DNA of 64,000 bases from Bacteroidota bacterium (lineage in GTDB: Bacteria > Bacteroidota > Bacteroidia > Chitinophagales > LD1), in assembly GCA_947475165.1 (NCBI GenBank), contig CANJLD010000003.1, positions 1-64,000 on the forward strand. Reading direction: 5' to 3'. This document shows, piece after piece, positions 11,498 to 57,223 of this stretch (positions within the stretch are counted from its first letter, which is position 1; every line of letters begins with the position of its first letter). A program made the position numbers and the translations under genes. The notes under the pieces are model-generated. The model was not told where the DNA came from. It saw only the letters and a list, made by a program, of their open reading frames with translations, and searched no databases.

Positions 11498-11853
11498 CTC
11501 ATGTTTTCCGGAAATCCGATATCGTTAGCCCCATTCACGTTTTCGGGAATGCGCCTCCTAACCTTAGGAGCCAGGTTCACGTTTTCGGGAATGCACCTCC
11601 TAACCTTAGGAGCCAGGTTCACGTTTTCGGGAATGCACCTCCTAACTTTAGGAGCCCTGTTCACGTTTTCGGGAATGCGCCTCCTAACCTTAGGAGCCCT
11701 GTTCACGTTTTCGGGAATGTGCCTCCTAACCTTAGGAGCCCTGTTTCCTTTTTCGGAAATGCACCTCCTAACCTTAGGAGCCCTGTTTCCCTTTTCGGAA
11801 ATGCACCTCCCAACCTTGGGAGCCCTGTTTCCGTTTTCGGAAATGCCTGAAAC
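11498..11853. repeat. Tandem array 1: 42-bp dimer made of two palindromic 21-mers
   Basis: Seven full 42-bp units start at 11534, 11576, 11618, 11660, 11702, 11744 and 11786, with a degenerate copy before and a partial copy after. Each unit is two 21-bp halves: a 16-bp dyad (TTCACGTTTTCGGGAA or TTTCCGTTTTCGGAAA) plus 5 bp, then a second dyad CTCCTAACCTTAGGAG plus 5 bp. The seventh unit has CTCCCAACCTTGGGAG, with both arms changed together. The array fills the gap between two convergent genes. Open frames on both strands are a side effect of a period divisible by three. Confidence 0.95.
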
Positions 11854-11915
11854 AAGTCTTTGGCAGGTATTTTACGAATTTTTATCTAACGGATGGTGGC
11901 AAGCAGAACTGCCTG

Positions 11916-36308: not shown

Positions 36309-37103
36309 TTGCAAGTGTTTTCAAATCCATACGTAGAAGAATTTTTAGGCGGCTTAATTATAGACACTATCCGCTATTTTATTTTTGCCGGAACGCCTTT
36401 CTTGTTACTATACGTTGCTTTTAAATCAAAATTGGTTCGTTTCAAGATTCAGCAGAAGTTTCCGGAGAATAAACACATGGTTCGCGAAATAGGGTTCTCG
36501 CTTTTGTCGATGTTCATCTTCAGCATTTTCAGCGTTGGAGTTTTTGTGGCACAGCAACACGGCTATACAAAAATATATACCGACATTCATGAGCACTCCA
36601 TCGCCTATTTAGTTTTCTCTACTATCCTGTTTATATTAGCGCACGATACTTACTTCTACTGGAGCCACCGGTTGATGCACCACAAGAAAATTTACCCGTA
36701 TGTGCATCTCATTCATCACAAAAGTTTTAATCCAACCCCTTGGGCAACATTTTCTTTCCATCCCTTTGAAGCAGTGATGCAGGTTTTAATTCTTCCTATT
36801 ATGGTGTTTGCCATTCCGCTTCACCCGCTGGCAATTTTTGCATGGAGCATGTATCAACTCGTTCTTAACGTTGGTGGGCACACCGGTTATGAAGTTTTCA
36901 GAAGCGGATTTACAAAACGCATTCATACTTTCTGGAGCAACACGGCTACGCATCATAACATGCACCACAAGCACGTAACCTGCAATTACAGTTTATACTT
37001 CAACATCTGGGACAGAATTATGGGCACCAATCACGAGCGCTATCATGAAGAATTTGAAGCCGGTGTGGCAAGAAGAAAAGAAATGCCGGAGAAATCAGCA
37101 TGA
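36309..37103 (+). CDS. Sterol desaturase family membrane hydroxylase
   Basis: About 264 residues. Histidine boxes HDTYFYWSHRLMHH, HLIHHKSF and HHNMHHKH place it in the fatty acid hydroxylase/sterol desaturase superfamily. The start is TTG 36309 or GTG 36315, with no ATG in range before the first helix. It overlaps the GH92 gene by 4 bp. Substrate unknown. Confidence 0.85.
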   Translation: MQVFSNPYVEEFLGGLIIDTIRYFIFAGTPFLLLYVAFKSKLVRFKIQQKFPENKHMVREIGFSLLSMFIFSIFSVGVFVAQQHGYTKIYTDIHEHSIAYLVFSTILFILAHDTYFYWSHRLMHHKKIYPYVHLIHHKSFNPTPWATFSFHPFEAVMQVLILPIMVFAIPLHPLAIFAWSMYQLVLNVGGHTGYEVFRSGFTKRIHTFWSNTATHHNMHHKHVTCNYSLYFNIWDRIMGTNHERYHEEFEAGVARRKEMPEKSA

Positions 37104-39310
37104 GAAAACTTGTTGCGTTCATTTGTTTTCTCTTTCTGATAATTTCTTTTCAGAAAATTTTCTCCCAGCAACTTTCAGAATACGTAAATCCCCTCATCGG
37201 CACTAAAGGACTTTTCCTTTATGGCAGAACAACTCCGTTTGTCACTCCCCCATTTGGAATGACGCACTGGACACCGGTTACGCGCAAAGCGCGCATTGCC
37301 GTTCCGCTTTATAATTATTTCGATACGCGTATCCGCGGGTTCCGAGCCTCGCATAAGCCCGCTATGTGGATGGGCGATTACGGACACGTTACGCTTAAAC
37401 CGGTCATCGGATATATAAATGAGAAGCGATTGAAGCAAACATTTTTCTTTTCGCATTGCAGCGAGGTTTCAAAGCCGTATTACTACTCGGTTAATTTAAT
37501 TACGCAAAAGCTTTCGAAGATTAAAACAGAAATGACCGCCACTTCGCGTTGCGGTATATTGATGTTTCATTTCCCGAAAAATGAAAGTCCATCCGTTTTT
37601 ATTGAAGCAAGTGAATTGCCCGACTCCAACGGGTGGATAAAAATCATTCCCGAGAAAAAAGAAATCATCGGCTGGAATAAAGACCGTCAGTCCGCGCATC
37701 TCGGCCCGCCTCTTCCTAACTTCAAAGGATATTTTGTCATTCAGTTTGGTGAAGCTTTTGAATCGTTCGGAGTTTATGAAAATGGAAATCTGAAAAGCGA
37801 CAGCACCGAACTAACCGCTAATGCCTGCGGTGCATGGGTAAGTTTCAAAAAGAACACAAGAGATGTTGAAGCAAGAGTGGCTACTTCTTTCATCAGTATT
37901 GAGCAGGCGCGCGAGAATTTCAATAAGGAAGTTCAGGATTTTGGAAACGTTGCAAAAGAAACGCAACAGGAATGGGAGAAATATCTGAGCCGGTTAGAGA
38001 TTGATGCCACCAAAAAGCAGAAAGGAATTTTCTATTCCGCCATGTATCACACGCTGTTGTTTCCGCGTACGTTTTCTGAGTATGGTAAGTATTACAGCGC
38101 CTTCGATGATAAAATTCACACCGGTGTCAGTTATAACGATTACTCGCTTTGGGATACTTACCGTGCCGAGCATCCGTTGTTGATTCTCACTGCACCGGAG
38201 CATGTGCCCGGCATGGTGCAGAGCCTGGTGCAGATGTATCAGGAAGGCGGCTATATGCCCAAGTGGCCCAACCCCACTTACACCGGTATTATGATTGGCA
38301 CCCATGCCGATGCCGTAATTGCCGATGCGGTGGTAAAAGGCGTAAAGGGTTTCGATTTGCAAAAAGCGTATGAGGCCTGCATGAAAGATGCGATGGTGCC
38401 TTCGGGTAACGACAGCGTGAACCGGTGGGCTGACCGCACGCCCTTTACTTTTATTGAAGCGCGCAACGGTTTGTATTGGTATAAAAAACTCGGCTACGTG
38501 CCGGTGGACAAAACCAATGAATCGGTTTCGAATACTATTGAAGGAGCGTATGACGATTTTTGTGTGGCGCAGGTAGCCAAAGCAAACGGCCGCATAGATG
38601 ATTACGATATGCTGATGAAGCGCAGCAAAAATTATCAGAACGTTTACATCCCTGCCACCGGTATGATGGCCCCGCGCAATTCAGACGGCACCTGGAACCA
38701 AGACACCCGCACCGGTTTTACCGAAGGCAGCCCGTGGACCTATTTATTCGGAGCGCAACACGATATTCCCGGGCTGATTGAGCTGATGGGCGGCAAAGAA
38801 AATTTTATAAAAAAGCTCAACCGCAATTTCCGTGGCGTGCATTACATACACATGAACGAGCCGGGGCATCATTACACTTACCTCTACGATTATGCCGGTC
38901 AGCCGTGGCGTACACAAAAGCTGGTGGCGCTCAACCGTTACTTTTTATACCGCAACAATCCCGATGGAATGGATGGCGATGACGACTGCGGACAGATGAG
39001 CGCCTGGTATGTTTTCAGCGCGCTGGGCTTTTACCCGGTTACCCCCGGCACCGGTGATTACGCCATCGGCACTCCGCAATTTCCCAAAGCCACTGTTTAT
39101 TTTAATCCCGAAAACAGGCAGCAGAAACCTGCCTACCGGTCAGGCAGGTTTGAAATTATTGCGCACCATGTTTCACCCGTCAACCGGTATATTCAATCAG
39201 TTACCCTCAACGGAAAAAAATTACCGGAGCCCTTTCTGCACCATGCCGATATTATAAATGGCGGCACCCTCGAATTTGAAATGGGACCAAGGCCGAAGAA
39301 GAGTTGGTAG
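37100..39310 (+). CDS. GH92 family glycosidase (alpha-mannosidase type)
   Basis: 736 residues with a signal peptide (1-23), N-terminal beta-sandwich (VNPLIGTKGLFLYGRTTPFV) and an alpha/alpha-barrel. The motif HMNEPGHHY carries the general acid glutamate, and WNQDTRTGFTEGSPWTY and DDCGQMSAWYVFS are also family marks. GH92 enzymes are calcium-dependent exo-alpha-mannosidases; the linkage is unknown. A 27-bp palindrome at 39125-39151 adds exactly nine codons (KPAYRSGRF) near the C-terminus. Confidence 0.9.
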   Translation: MRKLVAFICFLFLIISFQKIFSQQLSEYVNPLIGTKGLFLYGRTTPFVTPPFGMTHWTPVTRKARIAVPLYNYFDTRIRGFRASHKPAMWMGDYGHVTLKPVIGYINEKRLKQTFFFSHCSEVSKPYYYSVNLITQKLSKIKTEMTATSRCGILMFHFPKNESPSVFIEASELPDSNGWIKIIPEKKEIIGWNKDRQSAHLGPPLPNFKGYFVIQFGEAFESFGVYENGNLKSDSTELTANACGAWVSFKKNTRDVEARVATSFISIEQARENFNKEVQDFGNVAKETQQEWEKYLSRLEIDATKKQKGIFYSAMYHTLLFPRTFSEYGKYYSAFDDKIHTGVSYNDYSLWDTYRAEHPLLILTAPEHVPGMVQSLVQMYQEGGYMPKWPNPTYTGIMIGTHADAVIADAVVKGVKGFDLQKAYEACMKDAMVPSGNDSVNRWADRTPFTFIEARNGLYWYKKLGYVPVDKTNESVSNTIEGAYDDFCVAQVAKANGRIDDYDMLMKRSKNYQNVYIPATGMMAPRNSDGTWNQDTRTGFTEGSPWTYLFGAQHDIPGLIELMGGKENFIKKLNRNFRGVHYIHMNEPGHHYTYLYDYAGQPWRTQKLVALNRYFLYRNNPDGMDGDDDCGQMSAWYVFSALGFYPVTPGTGDYAIGTPQFPKATVYFNPENRQQKPAYRSGRFEIIAHHVSPVNRYIQSVTLNGKKLPEPFLHHADIINGGTLEFEMGPRPKKSW
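39125..39151. repeat. Palindrome inserted in-frame in the GH92 gene
   Basis: Arms AAACCTGCC and GGCAGGTTT flank TACCGGTCA; the unit is 27 bp and keeps the frame. In another frame it would encode LPTGQAG, a peptide often seen where this palindrome family falls inside Bacteroidota genes. A related palindrome interrupts the repeat at 10.44 kb. Confidence 0.8.
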
Positions 39311-39445
39311 TTTGAGTTTGGCTTATGTTCGTTCAATTTCCAGTTAGGTTTGTCTTTCCCGAGTTGGGTTCACCAGATTTTCAATTCGATATTCAAAAAG
39401 CCTTAGGTTTTTAACAGTTTTGGCCGTGGGCTTCAACATTCCATT

Positions 39446-39886
39446 AAAGGATTCTTCGTGTAATCGAAAGGATTGGAAGTAAACTTGAAAGGATCGTTCG
39501 AATCTTTAAATGAATCGTTCGTGTACTCGAATAGTTTGATTCAAACCATTAAAGGATTCTTCGTGTACTCGAAAGGATAGCCCGAATCTTTAAATGAATC
39601 GTTCGTGTACTTGAATAGTTTGAATCGAACCATTAAAGGATTGATTGTGTACTCGAAAGGATTCGAAGTAAACTTGAAAGGATAGATCGAATCTTTGAAT
39701 GAATCGTTCGTGTACTCGAATAGTTTGAATCAATCTATTAAAGGATTCTTCGTGAACTCGAAAGGATTCGAAGTAAACTTAAAAGGATAGATCGAATCTT
39801 TGAATGAATCGTTCGGGTACTTGAATAGTTTCAATCAAACCATTAAAGGATTGATGGTATCTTTAAATAGTTTCGAATGAAACCTG
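39446..39886. repeat. Tandem array 2: twenty-one 21-bp monomers in 105-bp higher-order units
   Basis: Twenty-one monomers of exactly 21 bp run from 39446 up to the last base before the acyl-CoA dehydrogenase stop codon. Five monomer types (a, b and c start AAAGGAT; d AATGAAT; e AATAGTT) follow the order abcde, acde, abcde, abcde, a plus an e-like one. Copies start at 39446, 39551, 39635, 39740 and 39845. Most monomers carry a short dyad, e.g. TTCG-6-CGAA in a, AAGT-AA-ACTT in b, GAA-TCG-TTC in d and GTTTGA-A-TCAAAC in e. A degenerate e-like copy may precede it at 39425. The 135 bp between GH92 and the array hold nothing I recognise. Confidence 0.95.
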
Positions 39887-39887
39887 G

Positions 39888-41690
39888 TTAAACTATCTCC
39901 TCAGGCTTCGCATCAACCGTTACATTGTTCTTGCTTTTTAAGCGCGTAAGCAAGCCTTCTGTTTTAGGAATTTCGTATTCGAAGAAATATTGCAGCGTGT
40001 GCAGTTTAGATTGAAGAAACTCTGCCGAATATTTTTTAGAAGAAGAATTTTTGAGTTGCTCCGCAACAACGCCCTGCTTTAACCACTGCCAGCCAATGAC
40101 AATAATGCCGAAGAGTTCAAGATACAGCGTAGCATCGGAAAGGAAAATTTCCGGTCCGTGCTTTTGCGCCACGCCCATTAAACGCATGGTAAGTTCCTGC
40201 AGTTGCGTGAGTTTTTGTTCGAGCGCCTCGGCATAGGTTTTAAGCGATTCGAATTGCTTTGCGTTTTCTATATCGGCAAAAACATCCTGCATGAGCAGCA
40301 TGGTGGCCTGTCCGTTTTTGAGCATTACTTTGCGGCCGAGCAAGTCCATACCGTGTATGGCGGTGGCGCCTTCGTGCAGGGTGTGTATGCGGGTTTCGCG
40401 GAAGAACAATTCGGCCATAAACTCTTTGGTAAAGCCGTAGCCACCGAAAATTTGCAGCGCAGTGCTGGTGGTTTGTATGCTCATTTCGGCCGGATACGAT
40501 TTTACGATTGGCGTAAGCAGTTCGAGTTTGAGGAAATTGTTTTCGGCTTCTTCTCCGGTAGATGTTTTGGATTGGTCGAGATACATGCAGGCTTGCAGTT
40601 CGAGGGCAAGCGTTCCTTCTACCATTGCTTTTTGAAACAAGAGCATGCGCTTTACATCGGCATGATGGATGATAGGAATTTGCGGTTTAAGCGGGTCTTT
40701 CTCGGTAAGCTTACGCCCCTGCAAACGCACGTTGGCATAGTCTAACGAATAGTAATACGCAGCCGAAGCAATGGCGGTGGCGCTAACGCCTACACCAATG
40801 CGCGCTTCGTTCATCATCTGAAACATGTAGCTTAAACCTTTGTGCTCTTCGCCTACCAGGTAAGCGTGGCAATCGTTCTGCTCGCCCATTATCAAGTGCG
40901 CGATAGGTGCACCGTGGTAACCCATTTTATGGAAGAGGCCTGCGGTGTGTACGTCATTAAAAACAAGCTCACCGTTTTTACCGGGGCGCATACGCGGCAC
41001 TACAAAAAGCGAAATGCCTTTGGTGCCTGCCGGTGCGCCTTCAATACGCGCAAGCATGAGGTGAACGATGTTATCGCAGCCATCGTGGTCGCCACAGCTG
41101 ATAAATATTTTTTGTCCCTTTAGTAAATAATGTCCTTCTGCGGTGCGGGTAGCTGTGCTTACTATATCAGAGAGCGAACTTCCGGCTTGCGGCTCGGTCA
41201 TGGCCATAGTGCCCTGCCATGCACCGCTCATCATTTTAGGAATAAAAGTTTCCTGCAGTTCTTTGTTTCCGAAGGCTTCAATTAAATGCGCGGCACCGGT
41301 GGTGAGAAACGCATAAGCCATTGGGGAATAATTAGCAGCCGCCATAATAAATGCCGCTGCCTGCATGATGGTAAACGGCACCTGTTGTCCGCCAAATTCA
41401 TGTGGTGCAGAAATCGAAATCCAACCATCTTCCCCAAACTTTTTCATCAACTTGCCCATTTTGGGGTGCACTTTTATCCGCGCATTTTCTACATAAGGAG
41501 GATTGCGGTCCATCTCTAACAATATAGGGCGAAGGTGATGAGTGGAGAGCGAATCAGCGGCTTCCACTATCATATCAAAGTTCTCAAGAGTGTGCTCTTT
41601 AAAGTATTCGCGCTTGCAAAGTTCTTCTACATGAAAAACTTCGTGGAGTAAAAATTTGAGATTTTCTTTCGAGTAAAACTTTCCTGCCAT
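39888..41690 (-). CDS. Acyl-CoA dehydrogenase
   Basis: 600 residues, the long form with an extra C-terminal domain. FAD-binding blocks MTEPQAGSSLSDI and ISCGDHD (residues about 165-205), and THTLHEGATAIHGMDLLGRK with the region of the catalytic base. It oxidises an acyl-CoA to the 2-enoyl-CoA and passes electrons to ETF. First in a minus-strand run with a GxxExxY-type gene, an SDR and proC upstream, though the dispersed repeats in the 78-bp gap may separate it. Confidence 0.92.
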   Translation of the reverse strand: MAGKFYSKENLKFLLHEVFHVEELCKREYFKEHTLENFDMIVEAADSLSTHHLRPILLEMDRNPPYVENARIKVHPKMGKLMKKFGEDGWISISAPHEFGGQQVPFTIMQAAAFIMAAANYSPMAYAFLTTGAAHLIEAFGNKELQETFIPKMMSGAWQGTMAMTEPQAGSSLSDIVSTATRTAEGHYLLKGQKIFISCGDHDGCDNIVHLMLARIEGAPAGTKGISLFVVPRMRPGKNGELVFNDVHTAGLFHKMGYHGAPIAHLIMGEQNDCHAYLVGEEHKGLSYMFQMMNEARIGVGVSATAIASAAYYYSLDYANVRLQGRKLTEKDPLKPQIPIIHHADVKRMLLFQKAMVEGTLALELQACMYLDQSKTSTGEEAENNFLKLELLTPIVKSYPAEMSIQTTSTALQIFGGYGFTKEFMAELFFRETRIHTLHEGATAIHGMDLLGRKVMLKNGQATMLLMQDVFADIENAKQFESLKTYAEALEQKLTQLQELTMRLMGVAQKHGPEIFLSDATLYLELFGIIVIGWQWLKQGVVAEQLKNSSSKKYSAEFLQSKLHTLQYFFEYEIPKTEGLLTRLKSKNNVTVDAKPEEIV

Positions 41691-50188: not shown

Positions 50189-51702
50189 TAATTCTCTTTC
50201 GTAACTGTATAAGTAACCTTAGCAGAATACAATCTCAACAGATTAGTTGTCTCCTTTGTTTTAAATCGCAGATAGTAAGAGTAACCCGAGTTATCAATAG
50301 TTTGATTTATACCTGACGCACTAAGTGTATTTGCTCCTGCAGCAAAAGCGGAACCTGAGGAATTAGTTGCGGCTAAACTTTGCGGAGTAGTGCTGCCGTT
50401 TTGCAGACTGTATAATTCAGCACTTACTTCATCGGTGGTAACTCCATCATAGGCGTAAACATCTATTGTAGTAATTACTGCACCGTCAGGCAGATTAAGC
50501 GGAGCAAACAAATAAGCATCTGTTCCCGCTGTGCCTCCCTGTACCCATCTTGCCTGGCCGGTAGAAAAACCGCCCAGCGAAATGCCTGTAGGAGTAGACA
50601 CCAGCAATACATTTTCTAAAATAAATGCTGAAGCAGGAACCGACAAGTATTTTGTTTTGGCAGCAGCATACATATAGCTATTAGCAGCAGGTATGCTGAT
50701 GTTGCCGTTTACTTCTAATTTTTGAGAAGCAGCAGTTTGCCCTATACCTACATTGCCTCCGTTGTTATAAATATTGCTGTTGTTGGTTACCCATTGCGTT
50801 CCGTTCCAATAAGGGGTGTTGCCTGCTGCGGAGCCATTAGGTAAAGTTCCTGTTGCACCGGTAGCACCTGTTGCTCCTGTTCCCCCATTTAATCCGTTCG
50901 TTCCATTTGTTCCTGCTATACCTGTAGGACCCTGAATACCCTGTGCGCCTTGCACTCCCTGTATTCCCTGTAAACCTTGTGGCCCGGTGCTTCCTGTTGC
51001 ACCTGTAGTTCCTGTTGCACCGGTAGGACCTGTCGGTCCTCCACCCGGTCCTGTGCTTCCTGTTGCTCCTGTAGCACCGGTAGGCCCTGTTGGTCCTCCT
51101 GCCGGTCCTGTATCACCTGTTGCACCGGTAGGTCCTTGCAGGCCTATACCTGTGGCTCCTGTTGGTCCTGTTGTACCGGTGTTACCTTGCACACCCGCGT
51201 TTCCCTGCGGTCCGGTTACGCCAATTGGTCCTTGTGTGCCTTGCACACCTTGTAAACCTTGTGGTCCGGTAGGGCCGGTTGGTCCTGCACTGCTGGCAGA
51301 AGCTGCGGCATATAAAGCATACGGCACGCTCATCAGTTGCGAAGTTCCCATATCGGTGTAGCCGCTTCCGGCATCGAATTCTACCTGTAAATATTTGTTG
51401 CCTGTTGCCCAGTTAATTCCGTTGAAAGTTCCTGAATCGACAATACCAGCACCAATAGTTACACTAAATAGTCCGAATTGGTTCGTTAATGCAGTCTGAT
51501 GTTCCTGAAATACGATTGTTCCCGTAGGTGAGCCATTATGAATAGTAAAACGAACGGAAATGTTTGTGCTTATCAGTTCATTGCCTGAAGCATTCCGCGC
51601 CACTGCCTGATAGTTGATGCCCTGAGGAGCCTGCGCATCGGCTAACAAAATGATTAAAAAAGCTATGACTGTTACAAGTATATTCTTTACCATACATTTC
51701 AT
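50188..51702 (-). CDS. Secreted protein with collagen-like Gly-X-Y repeats
   Basis: 504 residues (ATG 51702, or 51693 which starts the signal peptide). After the signal peptide come an N-terminal domain starting [15 protein letters not shown] (about 28-135), a collagen-like tract of about 45 Gly-X-Y triplets rich in GPTGATG (about 140-285), and a beta-rich C-terminal head. It probably forms a trimeric fibre at the cell surface. The N-terminal domain is common in Bacteroidota surface proteins. The repeat tract is GC-richer than the rest, and its copy number may vary. Confidence 0.85.
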
Positions 51703-56891: not shown

Positions 56892-56933
56892 GTTGCCCTG
56901 TTTCGGGCACTGGTTTCAAGCTTATCAGCTAAG

Positions 56934-57122
56934 GAAGATAAGTTAGGAGTGCTTACTCCTAATTTATAAGTTGATACTCCTAAAATGAAAGTGCGAACTT
57001 ATAACTTATAAGTTGATACTCCTAAAATGAGAGTGCGAACTTCTAACTTAAAAGTTGATACTTATAAAATAGGAGTGCGAACTACTAACTTAATAGTAAG
57101 GACTCCTAACTTAGGAGTCCTT
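56934..57122. repeat. Tandem array 3: nine 21-bp palindromic monomers
   Basis: Nine monomers, each a 17-bp core of the form ACTnnTAAcTTAnnAGT plus a 4-bp spacer, start at 56934 and then every 21 bp to 57102. Spacers alternate TGAT and GCGA over six monomers, giving a 42-bp dimer. Two cores are perfect dyads with different arms (ACTTATAACTTATAAGT at 57018? see next: 56997; ACTCCTAACTTAGGAGT at 57102). The array lies between convergent genes and ends about 100 bp before the T9SS gene stop. Confidence 0.93.
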
Positions 57123-57223
57123 GCTATTAAAAGATAAAAGCACCAAAAATGCTTTTAAAAGAGTGTTTTTTGTTTAAAAACACGTAAAATATGGAAAAAT
57201 GAATGTAGGATATGGTAATAACC

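Follow-up and report, generated by a model that had tools for sequence, protein, structure and literature searches.

The parC and tubC sites of type II and type III partition systems are tandem repeats, type III toxin-antitoxin systems have a lone protein gene with tandem repeats immediately upstream of it, and the alpha satellite of centromeres consists of 171-bp monomers, of which divergent forms are assembled into near-identical higher-order units. In ParR-parC and TubR-tubC the centromere-binding protein also represses transcription, and TubR-tubC forms a superhelical DNA-protein complex (PMC9178275). The parS site of pSM19035 is built of heptad repeats that are bound by a small ParB protein of the RHH type, and at least four contiguous repeats are needed, so that array length matters there (PMC9499535). 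ToxIN is an example of a type III toxin-antitoxin system (PMC8860590). The 21-bp arrays considered here would share with parS the arrangement of contiguous short binding sites for a small protein; parS differs in being a set of plasmid heptads accompanied by a ParA ATPase, whereas here the unit is 21 bp, the loci are many and chromosomal, no ATPase partner was noticed next to the units, and the protein has no family match. Likewise, type II and type III partition systems need ParM or TubZ, neither of which was noticed here, and lie on plasmids, whereas the present arrays are dispersed on the chromosome. Partition centromeres and operator arrays serve here as a working likeness, with no claim of family membership.

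The window, that is, the whole stretch of DNA that was analysed, is 64,000 nucleotides long, and the locus at its centre of interest (called array 2) is composed as follows.

37100..39310, + strand: left neighbour, an ORF of 736 aa; array 2 begins 116 bp past its stop
39440..39880, strand not applicable: array 2, 21 monomers of 21 bp, types a to e, in units of 105 and 84 bp
39888..41690, - strand: right neighbour, a convergent ORF of 600 aa, acyl-CoA dehydrogenase-like (a name taken from the first-pass annotation)

The left neighbour appears to resemble glycoside hydrolase family 92 (GH92). Cut in steps of 21 from position 39440, array 2 contains no indel. The first-pass annotation had placed the same array at 39446-39886, in a register displaced by 6, and its monomer order abcde, acde, abcde, abcde, a, e' stands, the letters being assigned manually. 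Monomers of one type are 89% identical (28 pairs) and those of different types 53% (143 pairs), figures for 19 monomers with two odd ones excluded; the array matches itself at 0.48 at lag 21 and 0.76 at lag 105, compared with 0.27-0.28 (maximum 0.345) in 200 dinucleotide shuffles. These monomer and lag statistics bear out the earlier reading as a higher-order repeat. One unit had been said to have lost exactly monomer b; a monomer was indeed lost by in-register exchange, but a fused monomer was left behind. This is monomer 7, which is b through base 13 and then c (90% fit; an e+c fusion fits equally), as unequal exchange within a shared core would produce. Monomer 21 is ambiguous in type (57% to b, 57% to e). 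The periodic stretch delimited by the detector runs from 39426 to 39887 and so ends flush with the dehydrogenase stop codon, which starts at 39888, as had been stated, and stops in all six frames (19, 12, 4, 6, 4, and 3) agree with the statement that no present gene lies there. Array 2 shares with alpha satellite the divergent monomers within near-identical units, and differs from it in the 21-bp monomer and the mostly unrelated sequence between loci. The comparison with alpha satellite made in the first-pass annotation took array 2 as a single curiosity and missed both the 21-bp quantum that recurs across many unrelated arrays and the tie of related arrays to small-protein genes.

A second array with the monomer set of array 2 lies on contig C8 (78% identical); read by eye, its 84-bp unit consists of a, b, a c/d fusion, and e, so unit composition has changed between the C3 and C8 copies. 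Array 2 and its edges gave one match (31 bp, E 7.6e-4) among 59 other relatives, and array 2 had no match on plasmids. Orthologues of the left neighbour are present in 13 of the 18 genomes of the genus (the own genome included), 11 of them with at least 443 bp of downstream sequence, and orthologues of the dehydrogenase in 15 of 18 (own included), two with less than 450 bp downstream. Arrays of 21 bp lie 3' of the GH92-like gene in G000, G001, and G010, and 3' of the dehydrogenase in G000 and G017; those at the sister positions are unlike the array 2 monomers (z -0.9, -0.6, and -1.2). The two flanking genes are on different contigs in four of the five relatives compared (the left gene was not found in G008), and array 2 thus probably also marks a junction of gene order. 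Next to array 2 there is no small gene. Both flanking genes adjoin an array with a gene of about 80 aa in a sister genome, the GH92-like gene in G001, where the 80-aa gene is truncated by the contig end, and the dehydrogenase in G017.

Array 2 is one of many such arrays. Tandem Repeats Finder, applied to the window together with twenty 20-kb stretches of the own genome (five of them picked for hits), reported many unrelated arrays with periods of 21, 42, 63, 84, 105, and 126 bp; the remaining periods are mostly collagen-like or pentapeptide-like and apparently coding, with a 14-bp repeat within an ORF (L020). In the part of the own-genome DNA that was taken without regard to hits (364 kb), windows outside ORFs with a strong match to themselves fall at lags 42 (1991 windows), 84 (1377), 21 (1144), 63 (1014), 126 (953), and 105 (912), and the next-best lag after these multiples of 21 has only 56. 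A detector working at multiples of 21 found 26 segments in 464 kb, or 21 after removal of five within long ORFs (window 50985, L015 17507 and 1300, L016 307, and L014 3153); in the unselected 364 kb it found 17, or 15 after two were set aside as coding. Arrays partly overlapped by ORFs of 118-513 aa (window 11505, L011, L012, L013, L025, and L029) were retained. With the lags moved by -1, +1, -2, and +2, the detector gave 0, 2, 0, and 1 stretches in the own-genome sample; two of these three are a 43-bp array in L019, and the third belongs to the L024 array, a 21-bp one, which must therefore contain a one-base shift. The 43-bp tandem array (L019 1630-1829) lies over a 100-aa ORF; no other array in the unselected own-genome DNA departs clearly from the 21-bp rule. 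The collagen-like repeat at 50985-51159 of the window lies within a 504-aa ORF and stands outside the noncoding set.

By extrapolation the 3.88 Mb genome should hold about 160 arrays, and in the unselected sample they occupy 14 of 66 intergenic regions of at least 150 bp. Many of them, array 2 included, adjoin apparently ordinary genes. In the 464 kb, 10 arrays lie between tandem, 6 between convergent, and 5 between divergent genes, which resembles the long intergenic regions as a whole (43, 17, and 24), so that any preference for orientation is not strong; their presence in all three contexts speaks against a role as terminators only. Two further arrays of the window are as follows.

11505..11875, strand not applicable: 21-bp array with a 42-bp unit and two alternating dyads; two relatives on C11 and one on C1; dyad p 0.005
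56917..57139, strand not applicable: 21-bp array with a 42-bp unit and strong dyads; relative on C7; dyad p 0.005

In both cases the p value is the floor of 200 permutations. The first of the two contains a paired change, CTCCTAACCTTAGGAG to CTCCCAACCTTGGGAG.

Sister genomes carry 21-bp arrays of other sequence: three in 233 kb of G001, nine in 147 kb of G017 (one of them in the contig taken for its dehydrogenase), and one in 20 kb of G010. None was found in 120-140 kb each of G009, G005, and G016, in 140 kb of G007 (a CRISPR array aside), or in the DNA sampled from other members of the family (117 kb) and of the order (177 kb). Removed from the relatives' counts were N stretches (L148, L159, and L162), the CRISPR array of L325, a within-ORF stretch of G004 (L131), and one of 84 bp from G013 (L140) which, on inspection by eye, codes for a glycine-rich membrane protein.

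In G001 and G017, arrays are followed by the same small gene of about 80 aa. At E 0.001, 23 copies of its family occur, spread over 9 of the 18 genus genomes, and a 21-bp array lies directly 5' of 20 of the 23; four shifted lags gave nothing at these loci. A profile of 20 members (A1) finds the family in 15 of 149 relatives (10 of 18 in the genus, 0 of 12 elsewhere in the family, and 5 in the order), three of which (G011, G455, and G472) score below 27 bits only, and among 394 genomes of the phylum the one positive is the own genome. That genome has only two strong and two weak copies, compared with its estimated 160 arrays. Among the 24 copies scoring at least 75 bits, 22 have a detected 21-bp array directly 5', all on that side; the remaining two, both of G009, encode one and the same protein, and lag 21 ranks among the highest lags there. 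Below 75 bits, an array accompanies G476, a partial G001 copy, and L296 (a 448-aa protein), and none was detected at two G007 copies (one with stops), L318 (with stops), L297, L315, L306, L307, and L308; three further hits below this score, all in G010, are outside the array count. The G007 copies L314 and L318 have in-frame stops and no detected array. Two further families of the order show the arrangement of array and 80-aa gene as well, with copies in G502, G506 (two), and G476 (L303, L304, L311, and L305). As background, an array lies within 450 bp 5' of an ORF in 12 of 352 cases in G000, 10 of 145 in G017, 3 of 223 in G001, and 0 of 361 in five other genomes, a rate of 0 to 7% over all ORFs of at least 60 aa.

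The best matches of the 80-aa protein are at E 0.022 in Pfam (20 members; one member each), 0.0022 in PHROG (an entry without function), and E 0.68 in PDB, and one member searched against NCBIfam gave none. Single members had no match on plasmids and phages, nor two sub-alignments on viral contigs, and sequence comparison gave no sign of a ToxN/AbiQ-like endoribonuclease. The family is uncharacterised, and its members are likely DNA-binding proteins.

Six units have a codirectional gene for a 162-aa protein ahead of the 80-aa gene, and in five of these the detector placed an array between the two; in three units a divergent gene of 309-343 aa lies at the array. The DNA examined encodes seven different proteins of the 162-aa family, and an array is found just downstream of six of them; six members were found by way of the 80-aa gene, and the seventh, L024 of the own genome, independently. 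The array of L024 is similar to one of the linked arrays of G017 (z 4.9), and it therefore appears to be a unit that lacks the 80-aa gene. By eye the 162-aa protein appears to be helical. Its family (for example L291:677-1162) is carried by 17 of 197 genomes of the class. For the 162-aa and 309-aa proteins, Pfam and NCBIfam offer no convincing family, and neither was found on plasmids. Reading by eye of the genes closest to 25 units showed no common NTPase (ParA, ParM, or TubZ). ParABS, ParMRC, and TubZRC systems have tandem centromere repeats beside a small centromere-binding protein; the 21-bp arrays lie 5' of a small gene whose product may or may not bind them.

Arrays and proteins vary together. 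The 45 pairs with at least 50% protein identity have a mean array z of 2.9-3.9, and the 255 pairs below 50% a mean of 0.1-0.4, single pairs among them reaching 4.2; the Mantel r is 0.58 (p 0.0002, 25 arrays). Shared descent of the linked DNA could account for part of this covariation.

Some arrays have partners of another kind. Three orphan arrays of G017 lie 5' of small HTH genes that match HTH_26 or HTH_3 at or above the curated cut-off, and these partners are of the Cro/C1 type; a fourth lies at a weaker candidate.

L192:1099-1530 (G017): array 5' of an HTH gene; HTH_26, E 1.6e-11
L205:3444-3812 (G017): array 5' of an HTH gene; HTH_26, E 3.8e-7
L191:1565-1846 (G017): array 5' of an HTH gene; HTH_3, at its cut-off
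L192:4491-4847 (G017): array 5' of a small gene that is weakly HTH

Iterated profile hits from the HTH-like ORFs of L012 and L191 were discarded, as they were contaminated by translated arrays. Further arrays adjoin genes of 215-450 aa with no convincing family. Proteins of 215-320 aa beside arrays, with no convincing Pfam match, are encoded at L198:1054-1731, L014:9597-10310, L016:10412-11056, L030:12351-13070, L183:1394-2356, and L191:2248-3189; those of L198 and L014 are related to one another.

The analysis shows a 21-bp quantum, mostly private sequences, a 5' position of the linked arrays at the small genes, no clearly protected reading frame, and neither an RNA fold nor a pooled wobble signal. 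The reading that we favour, at about an even call, is that array 2 is an orphan of a protein-DNA module in which arrays of sites are paired with small, mostly self-regulating binding proteins. Such a module would consist of about 5-14 sites at an exact spacing of two helical turns (21 bp) and an adjoining gene for a small DNA-binding protein, which would be a member of the 80-aa family or, elsewhere, a Cro/C1-type HTH protein. As the simplest mechanism in keeping with the spacing, the protein would occupy adjacent sites along one face of the helix in a cooperative manner, and it would regulate its own gene plus a neighbour, for example that of the 162-aa protein. Each protein would keep its private repeat sequence, selection on spacing would hold the 21 bp as the sequence drifts, and unequal exchange would extend the arrays and build higher-order units; orphan arrays such as array 2 would be copies whose gene was lost or never present. 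The extension from linked arrays to orphans is the weakest step, since the orphans have no partner, no common sequence, and more dyads. Dyads exceed column-permuted controls (p 0.05) in 15 of 38 arrays, a set that includes two linked ones (array 2, p 0.12), and in 1 of 24 linked arrays, so that orphan and linked arrays may be two phenomena sharing one period. The two kinds are alike in the mean share of the commonest base per column (0.73) and unlike overall in sequence (900 pairs, mean z 0.00, 2 above 4).

Selfish or neutral satellite DNA is a possible but doubtful alternative. Orphans including array 2 would then have arisen and multiplied through slippage, unequal exchange, and copying from one locus to another, and the 21 bp would be ancestral and functionless. 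The small sequence families found at several loci (array 1 at four places, array 2 and array 3 at two each) fit it, as do the fusion monomer of array 2, the different unit make-up of its C3 and C8 copies, and the occupation of all gene orientations much as in long intergenic regions; the array of L019 shows that another period can occur. Yet pairwise comparisons recovered no universal motif and most pairs of arrays have no common sequence (703 pairs, mean z 0.25, 29 above 3), while the shifted lags gave only three stretches, and a satellite does not readily explain an array on the same side of 22 of 24 copies of one gene family.

An RNA antitoxin of the type III kind, in which the 21-nt repeats would be transcribed and would neutralise the small protein, is improbable. 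The gene order is the same, with tandem repeats directly 5' of a small gene, repeat and protein covary, and read-through transcription is likely where a codirectional 162-aa gene precedes the array. However, ToxIN acts as RNA, and the present arrays differ in having no fold, no pooled wobble signal, a shorter unit, and a smaller protein, the 80-aa protein being half the size of type III toxins. In a folding test against column-permuted controls, none of the 24 linked arrays reaches z <=-2, whichever strand is taken; the means for the two strands are z 0.25 and 0.19, and the test is blind to pseudoknots. The mispairs pooled over the 15 most dyadic arrays are 41 G.U and 48 A.C, and this lack of a G.U excess speaks for DNA over RNA. 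Such a pooled sum can hide lopsided cases, of which there are two among the 15 (14 G.U to 1 A.C in L011 and 2 to 10 in L022), and single arrays such as these may act as RNA. Searches of Rfam with 16 loci gave nothing at gathering score except a tRNA, and no type III family; array 2 had two matches below gathering score, the best (E 0.014) to the histone 3' stem-loop. Finally, the motif TAnnTTTG, presumably a -7-like promoter element of Bacteroidota, occurs 7 times between array and start codon compared with 2.3 expected (within arrays 5 compared with 3.2, upstream of arrays 7 compared with 4.5), and in three FGKKH-type units of G010 and G004 it is placed past the array, 52 bp ahead of the start codon of the gene.

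That the arrays are coding minisatellites of seven-residue repeats, decayed or cryptic, can be dismissed almost entirely: 21 bp is seven codons, so that a frame persists, and over 38 arrays open frames are in mild excess (61 compared with 47 expected), but best-frame stops (18 compared with a permuted expectation of 17.6) do not point to clear protection, array 2 is closed in every frame, and an open conserved frame, which the first-pass annotation had itself named as what would overturn its reading, was not seen after the orthologous flanking genes at the places examined, where there are other arrays or none.

A broader claim can be put forward tentatively and as something less than probable: that these are a new class of self-diversifying modules, in which unrelated small DNA-binding proteins with private arrays at two-turn spacing would have multiplied in one Bacteroidota clade to about a fifth of long intergenic regions, the spacing being inherited and not the sequence. 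Dispersed repeats of prokaryotes are normally recognised by a common sequence, and we know of no prokaryotic repeat class that inherits spacing instead; a literature search, with most subscription journals outside it, found no description of such 21-bp arrays. Since the shared property is the period, sequence-based repeat annotation would show only unrelated arrays. The unnamed protein family gives a direct experimental handle on whether these are binding arrays, and if they are, they would form a natural set of protein-DNA pairs for the co-evolution of binding specificity and repeats.

Several other repeat types were considered and set aside. Dyads in only 15 of 38 arrays and the mean between-array z of 0.25 do not fit REP/BIME elements, which have a palindrome of common sequence at many loci, and for helical curvature the 10.5-bp Fourier terms are weak and inconsistent (purine/pyrimidine z 2.6, A+T z -1.7). 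The 21-bp arrays are not CRISPR arrays, in which unrelated spacers part identical repeats, as their monomers are contiguous, their variation is spread, and within one array the variable columns are similar to one another. G007 does carry a long CRISPR array (L325:3638-7972), whose 36-nt repeat appears to resemble Cas12a repeats.
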